Assembly (NCBI RefSeq): GCF_900635775.1
Contig: NZ_LR134167.1
Coordinates: forward strand, 1,273,001-1,337,000
Origin: Avibacterium volantium
GTDB lineage: Bacteria; Pseudomonadota; Gammaproteobacteria; Enterobacterales; Pasteurellaceae
Reading direction: 5' to 3'
DNA length: 64,000 bases
Below, one piece after another: positions 22,819-52,827 of the stretch (the first letter of the stretch is position 1; every line of letters starts with the position of its first letter). A program made the position numbers and the translations under genes. The notes beneath the pieces are model-generated. The model was given only the letters and a program-made list of their open reading frames with translations. It was not told the origin of the DNA and made no database searches.

Positions 22819-23222
22819 GGGGCTGTCCTAGATAACTAGACTAAACTCCCTTTAACTAGTTGTTTTAAAATGGGAATTTGAGTTTTTATGTCACTGTAAT
22901 TAAAACGCCATTCGCATTCCTTTAAATAAAGCTCAAAATGGGTTTTAGGAATGCCATTAAATTTGCGTAAATGGCGTTTTGCTTGGCTCCAAAAATTCTC
23001 AATTCCATTAATGTGGTTATGATTTTCAGCAAAATGTGTGCTGTGGTTGATATGGCTAAATTCACTCACATCAAGCAAATCATAACTACGATAAGTATCG
23101 GTATAAACAATACTATCAGGCTTTACTTGCTCGCGAATGATTGGCAACAATGTTGCAGATTGGGTATTTGGCACCGCGACGGTGTAAACCCTACCATTGC
23201 GTTTTAAAAGCCCATTCGAGAT
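22819..23222 (-). mobile_element. IS1016-like (IS1595 family) remnant, transposase 3' part
   Basis: Starts at the outer end with GGGGCTGTCCTAGATAAC, an IS1016-type inverted end, and contains the last ~128 codons of an IS1016-like transposase (GLLKRNGRVYTVAVPN, YTDTYRSYD, HNHINGIENFWSQAKRHLRKFNG). The opposite end of the element, including the first catalytic Asp region, is missing; the boundary near 23222 is where similarity to the transposase stops. It cannot move on its own. Confidence 0.85.
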
Positions 23223-23477
23223 AAAGGCTTTAGGGTAAATTTCTTCTGATTTGAAAGAACGTAAATCCACCCCAGTATCAACGTGAATCGCTCTTGCAAG
23301 TTTAACAAAATCACTTGTTGCCGTGCGATAGGTGTCTTGCCAATTGACTTCTATTGGCGAGTTTTCGGCTAAATTTTTTAATTTTTCCACTGCACTTTGG
23401 CGATCAAGGGAAAAGAGCAAAGGGCTATGTAAGGCAAGGGCAACGGCCATTGCAATCGGTGTAAATCTGATATTCAT
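22836..23477 (-). pseudogene. chimeric ORF: secreted-protein N-terminus fused to truncated IS1016 transposase
   Basis: One open frame of 213 codons joins two unrelated parts. Residues 1-24 look like a signal peptide (MNIRFTPIAMAVALALHSP, cut near LFSLD). Residues 25-85 (RQSAVEKLKNLAENSPIEVN and following) are a soluble segment I cannot assign. From about residue 88 (GLLKRNG) it is IS1016-type transposase to the end, keeping the second Asp (YTDTYRSYD) and the Glu/Asn motif (GIENFW) but lacking the first Asp. The most likely story is an IS insertion into a gene for an exported protein, followed by a deletion that fused the frames. Whether the fusion is expressed is unknown. Confidence 0.75.
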
Positions 23478-24897: not shown

Positions 24898-24982
24898 AGA
24901 AAATGTAATCATTTTTTTACAGGGTGTTTTTATTTCTTTACAAATTGGGATTGATGGTTGTTTTTTGCGTTAAATGACTTTT

Positions 24983-25633
24983 TTCTTTGGGATTGATAAC
25001 GGATTTCGCTCGTTGAGCGACCTACTTTCTTTTGCTTGCTCAAAAGAAAGTAGGCAAAGAAAAAAGCCCCCGACTAAATTGCTTATCTTCATTTTTAGCA
25101 AATTTTCTTCACGAAAAGTAAGCCCATACTCGCTACGCTGCGTTCAGGCGTTACTTTTCTAAAAATTTGTTAAAAATGAAGGCAATTTACACGGGAGATG
25201 ATAATACGCTTTCAATAGGTTGCACCTACCAATCCCCCTCTTTAGCAAAGAGGGGGTAGGGGAGATTTGTTCTGGAAGACATTTCACCACCTACGAGCCG
25301 TAGGTGGTTAGATAACACAGCCACACCGTGGCTGGGGCGAGAAAATTTTCTTTGTACTTTCTAACTTCTAATAAATTCAAAGAATTTCCACCGCACTTTA
25401 AATTTGCCCTAACTGAATTTCCCCGTCCAAACCGCCCGAATGGAGATAAAATTTTTAGAAAAATCACGCCGAGCGAGAGCGTAGCGAACATCAGGCTGAT
25501 TTTTCGTTAAGAAAATTTTATTGGAATGAGGAAAAAGCGGTTTGATCGGGGTTCCCTTTTCTTTGCTTCCTTTTGGGAACGCAAAAGAAAGGAAGTCGCC
25601 AACGGCGAAACCCGTTATCAATCCCAAAGAAAA
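24983..25633. repeat. composite structured repeat, locus 1 (arms A1 and B1)
   Basis: This fills most of the 945-base gap between tyrP and ribH. Arm A1 (24983-25199, plus) starts TTCTTTGGGATTGATAACGG. It holds a perfect 14 bp hairpin (25021-25034 with 25041-25054), then a long hairpin with outer stem TAAATTGC/GCAATTTA (25075-25082, 25182-25189). Arm B1 (25421-25633) is a diverged copy in inverse orientation, ending with the same CTTTGGGATTGATAACGG on the minus strand; its long-hairpin outer stem is CAAACCGC/GCGGTTTG. The arms enclose three short perfect hairpins. The second locus is at 29825-30418. ORFs in it are not conserved as proteins. Confidence 0.85.
25234..25334. repeat. cluster of three perfect hairpins with 3-base loops
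   Basis: Between the two arms of locus 1: CCCCCTCTTT/AAAGAGGGGG (25234-25256, loop AGC), ACCACCTACG/CGTAGGTGGT (25286-25308, loop AGC) and CAGCCAC/GTGGCTG (25318-25334, loop ACC). They are absent from locus 2, so this segment is an insertion or a separate small palindromic family. Confidence 0.75.
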
Positions 25634-25792
25634 AAGCGATTTAGCACAAACAAGGCTTGCCACGCTTAACAAATGAACTTCATTCTTATCCACAAAGAAA
25701 ATCTCTCCAACCCCAAGAATAAAATATCTCAACCTTAATTTTTTATGATAAAATCCGCCCCTATTTCCATAACATCAAACATAGGACAGATT

Positions 25793-26266
25793 ATGAAAGT
25801 ATTAGAAGGCGCGATTGCAGCACCAAATGCCAAAGTTGCGGTGGTGATTGCTCGTTTTAACAGCTTTATTAATGAAAGTTTATTAGAAGGTGCGTTAGAT
25901 GCCTTAAAACGTGTTGGACAAGTAAAAGATGAAAACATCACCTTAGTGCGCGCACCGGGGGCTTATGAGTTGCCATTAGTGGCTCGCCGTTTAGCGGAGA
26001 GCAAAAAATATGATGCGATTGTGGCATTAGGCACGGTGATCCGCGGTGGTACAGCGCATTTTGAATATGTAGCAGGCGAAGCGAGCAGCGGTTTAGGCCA
26101 AGTGGCGATGCAAGCGGAAATTCCAGTAGCGTTTGGCGTGCTAACCACTGAAAATATTGAACAAGCCATTGAACGTGCAGGCACAAAAGCGGGCAATAAA
26201 GGCGCAGAAGCGGCATTAGTGGCTTTAGAAATGATCAACTTATTAGCACAAATTGATAACGCATAA
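25793..26266 (+). CDS. ribH: 6,7-dimethyl-8-ribityllumazine synthase
   Basis: Condenses 5-amino-6-ribitylaminouracil with dihydroxybutanone phosphate to lumazine, the step before riboflavin synthase. The 157-residue protein shows the typical [29 protein letters not shown] and [17 protein letters not shown] segments; the catalytic His-containing HFE motif is intact. The ATG at 25793 matches the family N-terminus (MKVLEGAI) and follows AGGA. It overlaps nusB by TAATG, the ribH-nusB-thiL-pgpA order common in gammaproteobacteria. Confidence 0.96.
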
Positions 26267-29755: not shown

Positions 29756-29820
29756 AAAAGTGCGGTGGGAATTTTGGGATTTTTTAAAATTCCGTGGAAA
29801 ATGACCGCACTTTGTTTTTT
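29756..29820 (+). terminator. dapB terminator, long uptake-signal stem
   Basis: AAAGTGCGGT (29757-29766) and ACCGCACTTT (29804-29813) with further pairing of GGAATTTT and AAAATTCC inside, then GTTTTTTG. Confidence 0.82.
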
Positions 29821-29824
29821 GCTT

Positions 29825-30418
29825 TTTTCTTTGGGATAAATAACGTGTTTCGCTCGTTGAGCGACCTACTTTCTTTTGCTTGCTCAAAAGAAAGTAGGCA
29901 AAGAAAAAAGCCCCTGACTAAATTGCTTATCTTCATTTTTAACAAATTTTCTTAACGAAAAGTAAGCCCATACTCGCTACGCTGCGTTCAGGCGTTACTT
30001 TTCTAAAAATTTGTTAAAAATGAAGGCAATTTACACGGGAGATTAATCCTTTCTCTCTTCTACATTTTGTTTGAAAATTAGAGCAAAGTAGGAGAAAAGA
30101 TTTATTTTCCTATTTTGCAAAATAAAAAATGCGGTCATTTTTCATAAAATTTTAAAACTTCAAAAATTCCCACCGCACTTTAAAATTTGCCTTAACCGTA
30201 TTCCCCGTCCAAACCGCCCGAGTGGAGATAAAATTTTTAGAAAAATCACGCCGAGCGAGAGCGAAGCGAACATCAGGCTGATTTTTCGTAAAGAAAATTT
30301 TATTGGAATGAGGAAAAAGCGGTTTGATCGGGGTTCCCTTTTCTTTGCTTCCTTTCTTTTGGGTAAGCAAAAGAAAGGAAGTCGCCAACGGCGAAACCCG
30401 TTATCAATCTCAAAGAAA
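29825..30418. repeat. composite structured repeat, locus 2 (arms A2 and B2)
   Basis: Second copy of the repeat, filling the gap between dapB and yfaE. Arm A2 (29825-30043) repeats the 14 bp hairpin (29865-29878 with 29885-29898) and the long hairpin (TAAATTGC at 29919-29926, GCAATTTA at 30026-30033) almost base for base with A1. Arm B2 (30203-30418, inverse) has CAAACCGC/GCGGTTTG (30210-30217, 30319-30326) and a 14 bp hairpin CTTCCTTTCTTTTG/CAAAAGAAAGGAAG (30348-30361, 30368-30381). The sequence between the arms differs completely from locus 1, which shows that the arms are the conserved unit. Confidence 0.85.
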
Positions 30419-51179: not shown

Positions 51180-52622
51180 TTAATCCTGATAAAGTTGGTT
51201 GTAAAGGGCATTTTCAAAACGCACTAAGGGCGCGCGTTTGGTTTTGTTTTCCAGATCGCCCGTGGAATAGCCGTTGATAAATTGTACGAAGGCAATAGGG
51301 TCGCCTTTCGCATTTTTCATAAAGCCCGCGAGGTTATAAACCCCTTTTAATGCGCCTGTTTTTGCAGAAATGTTTTGCGCTAAAGGGGGATTGGTCATCG
51401 AACCCCGTCCGCTTAATGTGCCATCTACCCCCGCAATAGGAAAGCTGTCTAATAAATGCAGTTGCGTTTCGTGATTGGCAATATATTCAAGGGCTTGCAA
51501 CATTATATTGGCAGAAATTGAGTTGTGGCGTGAAAGCCCTGACCCATCGGCGATAACGCTATTATCGAATTTTATTCCTGCTTGAGATTGCAAAATTTGG
51601 CGCATTGCTTTTGCGGAAAGTTGAAAGGACGCAGGGCGCTTGTAATAGTGATAACCAATGGTGCGAAAGAGGGCATCGGCAATTTGGTTATCGGATTTTT
51701 TCATCATTTTTTTGATCAAATCTGGCAGCGGTTTAGACAAATGCTGTGCTAAAAACTGCCCTTTTTGTGCCGTGCGCGGCTGTTGGATTTTACCATTAAA
51801 TGCAATGCCAAGGCGGTTTAATTGACGTTGAATAATGGCTGCAGCATAAGCATTGGGATCTTGCACAGCAAAACTGAGCGCAAAAGGTTTACTTTGACGA
51901 GCAAGACAGCCTTTAATTTGATAGCGATTGTTGTCGTGCAACACGGCATCAAGTTGGCAATAAGGCGCTTCTTCTTTGCTTGCCACACGCACTTGACCGA
52001 ACACTTGCACAGGATATTGCGCTGGCACATTGAATTTCACCAATTCACCCGTAGGCAAATTGGCATCAAGATCCACATAAAAACAGTTGTGATTGATATT
52101 CACCGCCGCAGGGGGTGAATTAAAGCACATTGACAAATCATTCCAAATCCAACCTAAGCCACGGTCGTGTCCAGTAAATACGGAAGTATCTAAAATAAGA
52201 TCACCTGTAATGCGCTGAATGCCTTGTTGTTTTAATTGGGCTAGTAGATGATACAGTTGATCACTGGTTAAATCTGGATCACCTGTGAAGACAATGACTA
52301 AGTTACCGCGTAACTCACCATTTTGAATATCACCTTGACGTAGCAGAGTTGTTTTAAAATAAAATTCATCGCCAAGGCTGAGTTTAGCGGCGAGTGCGGT
52401 AAATACTTTCTGCGTACTTGCAGGAAGCATAAAGGTTTGTGGATTAAGTGCGGTGAGAATTTCTTGCGTTTTTAAGTTTTTCGCCACAAAAGAAAGGCTC
52501 GTTCCCCCAGGAAGCTGCGTGCTAAGTTGTGCCACGTCCACTTCAGCAGCACTATATGGCGTGTGCAAAGCAAAGGCAATGCCTAATGCGAAAGGCAGTA
52601 ATTTTGATGATAATTTGTACAT
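51180..52622 (-). CDS. dacB: D-alanyl-D-alanine carboxypeptidase/endopeptidase (PBP4)
   Basis: A 480-residue periplasmic penicillin-binding protein of class C that trims and cuts peptidoglycan cross-links. A signal peptide (about 1-27, cut after AAE or nearby) is followed by the split catalytic domain. The SxxK motif is PASTQKVF (near residue 68), SxN is KKSDNQIAD (near 307), and KTG is SAKTGALKG (near 416). Length fits E. coli DacB (477). It is divergent from greA, the same neighbourhood as in E. coli and H. influenzae, and directly upstream of the MOSC gene. Confidence 0.95.
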   Translation of the reverse strand: MYKLSSKLLPFALGIAFALHTPYSAAEVDVAQLSTQLPGGTSLSFVAKNLKTQEILTALNPQTFMLPASTQKVFTALAAKLSLGDEFYFKTTLLRQGDIQNGELRGNLVIVFTGDPDLTSDQLYHLLAQLKQQGIQRITGDLILDTSVFTGHDRGLGWIWNDLSMCFNSPPAAVNINHNCFYVDLDANLPTGELVKFNVPAQYPVQVFGQVRVASKEEAPYCQLDAVLHDNNRYQIKGCLARQSKPFALSFAVQDPNAYAAAIIQRQLNRLGIAFNGKIQQPRTAQKGQFLAQHLSKPLPDLIKKMMKKSDNQIADALFRTIGYHYYKRPASFQLSAKAMRQILQSQAGIKFDNSVIADGSGLSRHNSISANIMLQALEYIANHETQLHLLDSFPIAGVDGTLSGRGSMTNPPLAQNISAKTGALKGVYNLAGFMKNAKGDPIAFVQFINGYSTGDLENKTKRAPLVRFENALYNQLYQD

Positions 52623-52827
52623 AAATAATCGCTATGGTTGCTATTTTTTTTTAGAAACACAATAATAGTGCTGGATACTGCGAGAGTAAAATTATTTCTT
52701 GCATAAAATGGTGTAATAATGCGGTTTACATCAGAATGATTTTTTGAGCTACGACAAAGCTGAATAATGAAAACATATTGCTTTGTTGCGGTTTTATTTT
52801 TGACTAAAAAAGGAACAAGGATTAACA

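Follow-up and report, generated by a model that had tools for sequence, protein, structure and literature searches.

Several described systems come close to the element examined here. A 2024 survey lists 250 mobile/repeat sequence candidates (MRSC), and its authors allow, in the sections considered here, that MRSC structure may act as DNA (PMC11109978). As described in those sections, candidates such as MRSC-65-2 resemble our unit in having one long stem that covaries, numerous copies in a genome and an inconsistent orientation; however, MRSC-65-2 carries a repeated UYCCGG and has more than 20,000 members in diverse phyla (PMC11109978), whereas the unit is marked by an A/GTNAA internal loop and was found in two groups only. 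The BoxC, PIT and TM-ECO triplex motifs have the same purine-mirror layout as the hairpin of the unit and as a hairpin in its spacer, and intrastrand triplex motifs have been linked with rearranged loci, although the published E. coli motif, about 35 nt in length, is rich in G/C and the excerpted part of that article holds no counterpart of the 129-nt stem module of the unit (PMC4666352). Besides, paired uptake sequences form hairpins in Hin-1 and Pam-1 of H. influenzae and P. multocida, and such pairs separate array units in the present genome; Hin-1 and Pam-1 measure 31 and 155 nt and contain DUS repeats, whereas the unit is absent from the available part of their description (PMC2267715).

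The REP and BIME elements are, according to the partial descriptions at hand, extragenic palindromic repeats that likewise stand singly, in alternating orientation and in arrays. By the same descriptions REPs are 20-40 nt long and of high copy number, whereas the unit measures about 130 + 84 nt with mostly at least 1-24 matches per genome, and their GTAG or CGTC tag compares with a GTAG foot in some hairpin modules only, GGAAG or GTAAC being found in others. In the REP/TnpA-REP (RAYT) system the same palindrome flanks the transposase gene, whereas the local RAYT-like gene of the unit's own genome has another palindrome; both by size and by RAYT flanks, the unit falls outside the REPs. MITEs, to which the unit may be likened in behaviour, as it may to REP/BIME repeats, have a target-site duplication and an autonomous partner, and neither was seen in the sites inspected. 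Integron attC sites are sequence-variable folded hairpins recognised through extrahelical bases, a principle proposed below for the unit as well, although paired R boxes and cassette genes were not found in it by eye.

The layout had been put forward as one without a described counterpart in Pasteurellaceae. Our literature search returned no title or abstract opening describing the unit, and a term search of the accessible text of PMC3733652 found none of five genus names. Within the titles, abstract openings and partial texts searched, the unit as a whole is thus undescribed; its parts, in contrast, are of known kinds (purine-triplex hairpins and paired uptake sequences). We give an even chance to the reading that the unit represents a non-autonomous, structure-recognised interspersed DNA repeat family of Pasteurellaceae, locus 1 being a composite of two copies.

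Composite loci and anatomy of the unit

The window, that is, the whole stretch of 64,000 nucleotides that was analysed, corresponds to G000:C1:1273001-1337000 of a genome of 2,230,476 bases. Locus 1 lies between a divergent permease gene and ribH and consists of two units in opposite orientation with their tails outward; 4.8 kb away, between dapB and a ferredoxin-like gene, locus 2 (29828-30417) is a second two-unit composite built of the same units (Table 1). Gene names (ribH, dapB, ubiG, permease and others) were read from translations, and ten proteins were checked against Pfam. The arms A1 (minus strand, 24984-25195) and B1 (plus strand, 25421-25630) on which the original prediction was based are real, the stem of A1 being matched by the covariance model R1 at G000:C1:1298068-1298196 (window 25068-25196), and the arms of locus 1 extend outward past the units as an inverted repeat. 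Elsewhere in the window, an ORF at 22836-23477 has a C-terminal half that looks DDE transposase-like by eye and is perhaps a fragment joined to an unrelated start.

Table 1. Features of the two composite loci (window positions).
Feature	Position	Strand	Description or basis
Outer end of left unit, locus 1	24961-25009	-	Inverted repeat, 88% complementary to 25605-25653
Unit A1, whole, locus 1	about 24984-25196	-	Stem and hairpin modules
Unit A1, hairpin module	24984-25066	-	CTTTCTTTTG-loop-CAAAAGAAAG hairpin (triplex-capable mirror), mini-hairpin CGCTC-AAC-GAGCG, AAAGA end; alignment A2 and fold
Unit A1, stem module	25067-25196	-	Outer, middle and inner stems; internal loop A / GTGAA; alignment A1
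Spacer G/C-rich hairpin with mirror-symmetric purine tail (BoxC-like potential triplex motif)	25234-25264	+	Sequence; class as in the part of PMC4666352 considered
Short palindrome in locus 1 spacer	25281-25313	.	Repeat search
Uptake signal sequence core in locus 1 spacer, 5' of B-type unit	25390-25398	-	Sequence
Unit B1, stem module	25421-25551	+	Internal loop A (25457) / GTTAA within CGTTAAG (25505-25511)
Unit B1, hairpin module	25552-25632	+	4-nt deletion in hairpin; mini-hairpin CGCC-AAC-GGCG
Outer end of right unit, locus 1	25605-25653	+	Inverted repeat of 24961-25009
Inverted pair of uptake signal sequences beside locus 2	29758-29812	.	Reverse complement resembles 1126 kb array spacers (by eye)
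Locus 2, left unit	29828-30039	-	222-nt stretch shares 97% identity with its counterpart in A1
Locus 2, right unit B2	30203-30417	+	Second unit of the composite

The unit, of about 212 nt, comprises an interrupted stem module of about 129 nt followed by an 84-nt hairpin module. The stem module (129 model positions, 42 pairs) is made of an outer stem, a middle stem, an asymmetric 1x5 internal loop and an inner stem, with the loop region near AGCGNAGCGA. In the genus alignment A1, which holds 54 of 56 copies, two divergent or disrupted ones being omitted, the single base of the internal loop is A in 54/54 copies and the other side reads GTNAA in 52/54; in the 11-genus alignment A4 (64 rows) the corresponding numbers are 63 and 58. 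The hairpin module (84 positions) contains CTTTCTTTTG-loop-CAAAAGAAAG, a mini-hairpin (commonly CGCC-AAC-GGCG or CGCTC-AAC-GAGCG) and AAAGA, in that order, and a T/C mirror run, T4CT3..T3CT4, precedes the hairpin in 48 of the 61 hairpin modules. The hairpin plus mirror third strand that defines triplex motifs in sequence is found in this module. Uptake signal sequences, mostly as inverted pairs, stand between array units.

Uniformity is lower for the two-module unit than for the stem alone, since in other genera the hairpin model R2 recovered the module from no more than 7 of 17 Pasteurellaceae and phage loci. In some R2-negative loci a hairpin with a different sequence can be made out by eye, and some units have their outer right arm broken by further palindromic insertions (L063:1700-1733, L068:2432-2490 and L321:914-1015), the last insert, with the adjoining arm, overlapping Rfam RF02902 (Aggregatibacter sRNA 22). 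A G/C-rich purine-mirror hairpin, CCCCTCTTT..AAAGAGGGG..GGGGAG, occurs at window 25234-25264 and in L084, L090, L097, L192, L195, L204, L234, L239 and L254; a unit lies within 900 nt at 11 of 23 places in the loci retrieved, with the hairpin on the unit's 5' side in 11/11, a count biased by the choice of loci for their units.

Copies and distribution

In its own genome the unit is present in 22 full-length and several partial copies at 12 places (nhmmer), two of which are five-unit arrays. A search of Pasteurellaceae genomes with a covariance model, suggested in the original prediction, was carried out with the stem model R1, which matched 99 of 140 genomes and 26 of 43 genera, the remaining 41 genomes being without a match at threshold. 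Between relatives the number of matches varies from 0 to over 20; carrier genomes mostly have at least 1-24, all of these numbers being lower bounds since up to 24 candidates were scored per genome. Model R3 matched 5 of 398 Pseudomonadota genomes, all five Pasteurellaceae among the matches listed, under strict filters that may miss weak relatives. Additionally, a pattern scan of an 84,980-species collection, restricted to exact matches of one pattern, returned 74 stretches, of which, by record title, 64 come from genera that we take to be Pasteurellaceae, 9 from five Candidatus Saccharibacteria MAGs and 1 from Pseudomonas stutzeri. The latter (L267, CABDVE010000001.1, titled Pseudomonas stutzeri NCTC11607) is probably a mislabelled genome of Pasteurellaceae (G128), and two loci of G128 (L332 and L334) have short tandem repeats next to units and to a large gene resembling those for surface proteins. 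The A1 stem region had no match in E. coli genomes, nor had B1 in plasmids.

Twelve IMG/VR contigs match both the pattern and R3. In 11 of the 12, which are close relatives and represent few events, the unit occupies, in sense, the junction of the small-terminase and GPL head-completion genes in P2-like prophages, as judged from gene order, with Pfam names for two contigs. The twelfth contig (L280) carries it beside nrdD, and likewise one copy in the window genome precedes a Fer4_12 protein read as NrdG. At the terminase/GPL junction of Mannheimia phage PHL101 there is a 111-base gap with an annotated promoter and terminator and, by eye, no unit. The prophage copy had no match in the phage collection, and the terminase-GPL region, compared with annotated phages, matched ten Mannheimia records through the GPL gene only. 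In L277 and L282 the unit was seen by eye directly before a phage terminator-like stem with uptake-sequence cores in its loop.

The presence of R3 matches in all five Saccharibacteria MAGs (L288-L311) was unexpected, with 3-7 places each and 24 in total in genomes of 0.5-0.8 Mb, including two loci (L304 and L306) with the same element sequence, perhaps duplicated in assembly. The five-base loop side is GTNAA in 23/24 rows and GTTTA in one, and the six examples that were folded have very long, locus-specific outer arms. Their core stems hold 94 two-sided, 26 one-sided and 4 unpaired cells, with 35 G-U (16 in one fixed column) and 3 A-C. The hairpin model R2 matched 0 of the 13 loci covered among the 24. 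The core may be shared through common descent, transfer or convergence; Saccharibacteria often live on other bacteria.

Conservation of the fold

The paired changes read between the arms were recovered. The outer stem is TAAATTGC/GCAATTTA at 25075/25182 vs. CCAAACCGCC/GCGGTTTG at 25427/25537, the inner stem is AAAAGTAA/TTACTTTT (25113/25151, minus-strand reading) vs. AAAAATCA/TGATTTTT at 25459/25497, and the first hairpin is CCTACTTTC/GAAAGTAGG at 25021/25046 vs. CTTCCTTTC/GAAAGGAAG at 30348/30373 in locus 2. The loop segment described as conserved is present as GCTACGCT at 25132 and as its complement AGCGTAGC at 25478, although one base varies across copies. Single-stranded-DNA folding compared with 200 dinucleotide shuffles gave z-scores of -7.3 for the A1 stem, -4.5 for the B1 stem, -5.8 for the A1 hairpin module and -5.5 for the locus-2 hairpin module, with 0 shuffles as good in each case, and of only -2.3 for the B1 hairpin module, which lacks 4 nt in the first hairpin and was equalled by 5 shuffles.

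Within the genus, two-sided changes occur in 14/42 stem pairs and 5/18 hairpin-module pairs. Across the 11 genera of alignment A4 (61 distinct rows), 96.3% of 2498 cells are paired vs. 78.0% in shuffles and 38-56% in slid controls, 0/500 shuffles reach the observed pairing, and 34 of the 42 pairs change on both sides; A4 is an alignment fitted to the model, and an unfitted MAFFT alignment gives 405 two-sided vs. 58 one-sided cells. The unit thus has the covariation beyond shuffles that is looked for in structured RNAs. The middle stems are almost wholly replaced between genera and still largely complementary, and broken pairs also occur, as in a recombinant copy at 2131.9 kb, in which one arm of the outer stem is A-type and the other B-type. 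The seven paired changes counted at first proved to be a small sample of this strong pattern, and the preference for a fold over a protein was borne out, with the fold kept far beyond shuffles in 11 genera. A protein-coding reading was rejected, since single-base indels among aligned copies break the frames and the ORFs inside locus 1 are short (60-107 aa).

Competing explanations for the paired changes

The best-scoring 30 lysine riboswitch matches of Pasteurellaceae were aligned as a yardstick, a single control family with a mean column identity of 81% vs. 82% for alignment A1. In the riboswitch, G-U makes up 213/1446 standard cells (15%) and A-C 5, with 135 two-sided vs. 90 one-sided changes (1.5:1). 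The unit in A4, counted with one fixed T-G column, one reverse-strand row and one shortened row omitted, has 51/2274 G-U (2%) and 16 A-C, with 446 two-sided vs. 47 one-sided changes (9.5:1); the pairing count given above for A4 includes both rows. Both contrasts are marked by Fisher's test, with cells that are not independent (G-U:A-C 51:16 vs. 213:5, p 1e-7; two-sided:one-sided 446:47 vs. 135:90, p 2e-20), and the fitted A4 alignment may favour G-U. Alignment A1 gives 35 G-U, 18 A-C and 168 two-sided vs. 34 one-sided changes (4.9:1 within the genus), and alignment A2 gives 12 G-U and 12 A-C. Judged by this one control family, the G-U use and A-C avoidance of a riboswitch are not seen in the unit. 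With far fewer G-U pairs and far more two-sided changes than the lysine riboswitch, its pairs evolve in a way that better suits a fold working at the DNA level, or the copying of one arm from the other. That G-U outnumbers A-C in A1 and A4 speaks against a fully strand-symmetric process and would fit one-strand folding or RNA.

A cis-acting RNA element, transcribed in operons and folded so as to be cut by RNase III, to protect the mRNA or to tune the downstream gene, is in our judgment unlikely. Among the best 150 of 165 matches and A4, with identical-sequence clusters dropped and orthologues kept, single units between co-directional genes are in sense in 43 cases, as expected of an RNA or of folding confined to one strand, but antisense in 17, and several more are divergent or convergent. 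The sense placement in 11/12 phage contigs, the copies within gene pairs such as thrB-thrC and nrdD-nrdG, the G-U preference in A4 and the overlap of RF02902 with the insertion and adjoining arm of one copy point the same way as the 43; the tandem copies, up to five, and the 2% of G-U against the 15% of the riboswitch do not, and Rfam placed no family on the unit either in a gathering search of the window or in a permissive search of five loci. Among the three candidate readings originally offered, the RNA was weakened on these grounds and the non-autonomous mobile element came out best. Farther along the window, at 52622-52702, Rfam RF02904 (Aggregatibacter sRNA 69) gave a match of 49.8 bits upstream of a gene that is greA-like by eye.

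It is decidedly unlikely that hairpin-templated correction of one arm by the other (template switching or cruciform repair) made most of the paired changes with no need for selection on the fold. Such correction would account for the 9.5:1 excess of two-sided changes (4.9:1 within the genus), for pairs that switch without one-sided cells (e.g., UA:31 AU:25 CG:5) and for the almost whole replacement of middle stems between genera. Stepwise intermediates are nevertheless present (UA, UG and CG at the outer pair), and the unpaired internal loop is kept in 52/54 genus copies, though arm copying alone should erase it, which argues that the internal loop itself is read by something. The fold is maintained, as first proposed, but the paired changes may not come from selection alone: they are so strongly two-sided and so poor in G-U that arm-to-arm copying in a DNA hairpin may explain many of them.

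A host-useful DNA structure, namely a cruciform or triplex site for chromosome organisation, replication pausing or uptake that transformation spreads through uptake sequences, is highly improbable, for although uptake cores are denser near units (27 in 11.6 kb vs. 16 in 37.9 kb of the same loci), the T4CT3..T3CT4 mirror is frequent (48/61) and several sites are common to congeners, 14 of those 27 cores come from two arrays, the background of the density is the same loci rather than intergenic DNA, relatives differ in match number, from 0 to over 20, and 41/140 genomes lack a match at threshold.

Rearrangement and decay at shared sites

Opposite-orientation clusters of two units follow the order -+ (tail-out) in 19/19 cases with both flanking genes called, again among the best 150 of 165 matches and A4. 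The composite beside ribH is inverted in the sister species G023, where window 24981-25653 aligns reversed (90%, 680 columns) between direct flanks, namely 25663-25845 (92%) on the right and a left side from 24700 whose match runs into the left unit to 25168. This flip needs no special enzyme, as homologous recombination between inverted units would suffice.

The dapB site is occupied in 6/7 genomes compared, the thrB-thrC site in 6/7 (two as remnants), the ubiG site in 4/7 (one a fragment at a contig end) and the ribH site in 2/7. Between thrB and thrC, the genus has one unit, a tandem pair or deletion remnants, with other DNA in G025 and a contig end cutting G024. The look for empty sites that had been called for found unoccupied gaps, between permease and ribH in G026 and G028 and at dapB in G027, but no clean single-unit empty site; no permease gene was found next to ribH in G024, G025 or G027. 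Two units at different places in G095 are 93% identical over 183 nt, after which the similarity ends. Given the occupancy of these four sites in the seven genomes, movement of the units is rare or old. In our reading, the comparisons describe a resident family whose units recombine, duplicate and decay and only rarely take up new places, and the best reading is that it is mostly old and resident.

A proposed folded DNA repeat and its possible mobility

The family is dispersed and multi-copy, keeps its fold through paired changes, pairs its units tail-out and has undergone a segment flip, tandem duplication and decay. In the reading as a non-autonomous DNA repeat, which we prefer, the unit would act at the level of DNA rather than RNA, one strand, or both as a cruciform, forming a long hairpin in which a stem free to vary would carry the conserved 1x5 internal loop, with A facing GTNAA, ahead of the purine-mirror hairpin. 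A protein would recognise the folded loop in single-stranded DNA, and this recognition may let units be copied or exchanged to new sites in trans, without a gene of their own. No target-site duplication is visible in the sites inspected, the unoccupied ribH (G026, G028) and dapB (G027) sites being too diverged to show one. In the loci with genes listed, neither a transposase-like gene between units nor an autonomous partner element was found, although tail-out pairs do give TIR-like ends.

A Y1 transposase is associated with the unit but seems not to be required, the unit being found in 86/108 Y1-positive vs. 13/32 Y1-negative genomes (odds ratio 5.7, p 5e-5, kinship ignored), and the Y1-negative ones make up 13 of the 99 carriers, including G108 with at least 9 matches. 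The RAYT-like Y1 gene of the window genome (L124:1390-1908, near 1731.7 kb) is flanked by GTAGGGTGGGCTTCAGCCCACC palindromes and not by the unit, and the possibility that the unit is the REP of this resident gene was rejected because the gene has a different palindrome at its flanks. The composite at 1125.7 kb (L065) has a pair of palindromes similar to GTAGGGTGGGCTTCAGCCCACC in its spacer.

A more far-reaching version, which we regard as possible though tentative, is that the unit represents a new class of mobile DNA in which a recombinase would identify a long hairpin of free sequence only via its conserved 1x5 loop (A/GTNAA), common to Pasteurellaceae, their P2-like prophages and Saccharibacteria, which belong to another phylum, and would make copies and flips through folded single strands, attC-like in principle and unrelated to integrons. 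The loop shared with Saccharibacteria raises a testable question, namely which protein reads it. Besides, setting pair evolution against that of a riboswitch from the same bacterial family provides an easy means of telling DNA-acting from RNA-acting folds. If our preferred reading is true, a family-wide intergenic DNA structure would be a repeat that is active in recombination and remodels the junctions of operons, the inversion beside ribH being a case in point.
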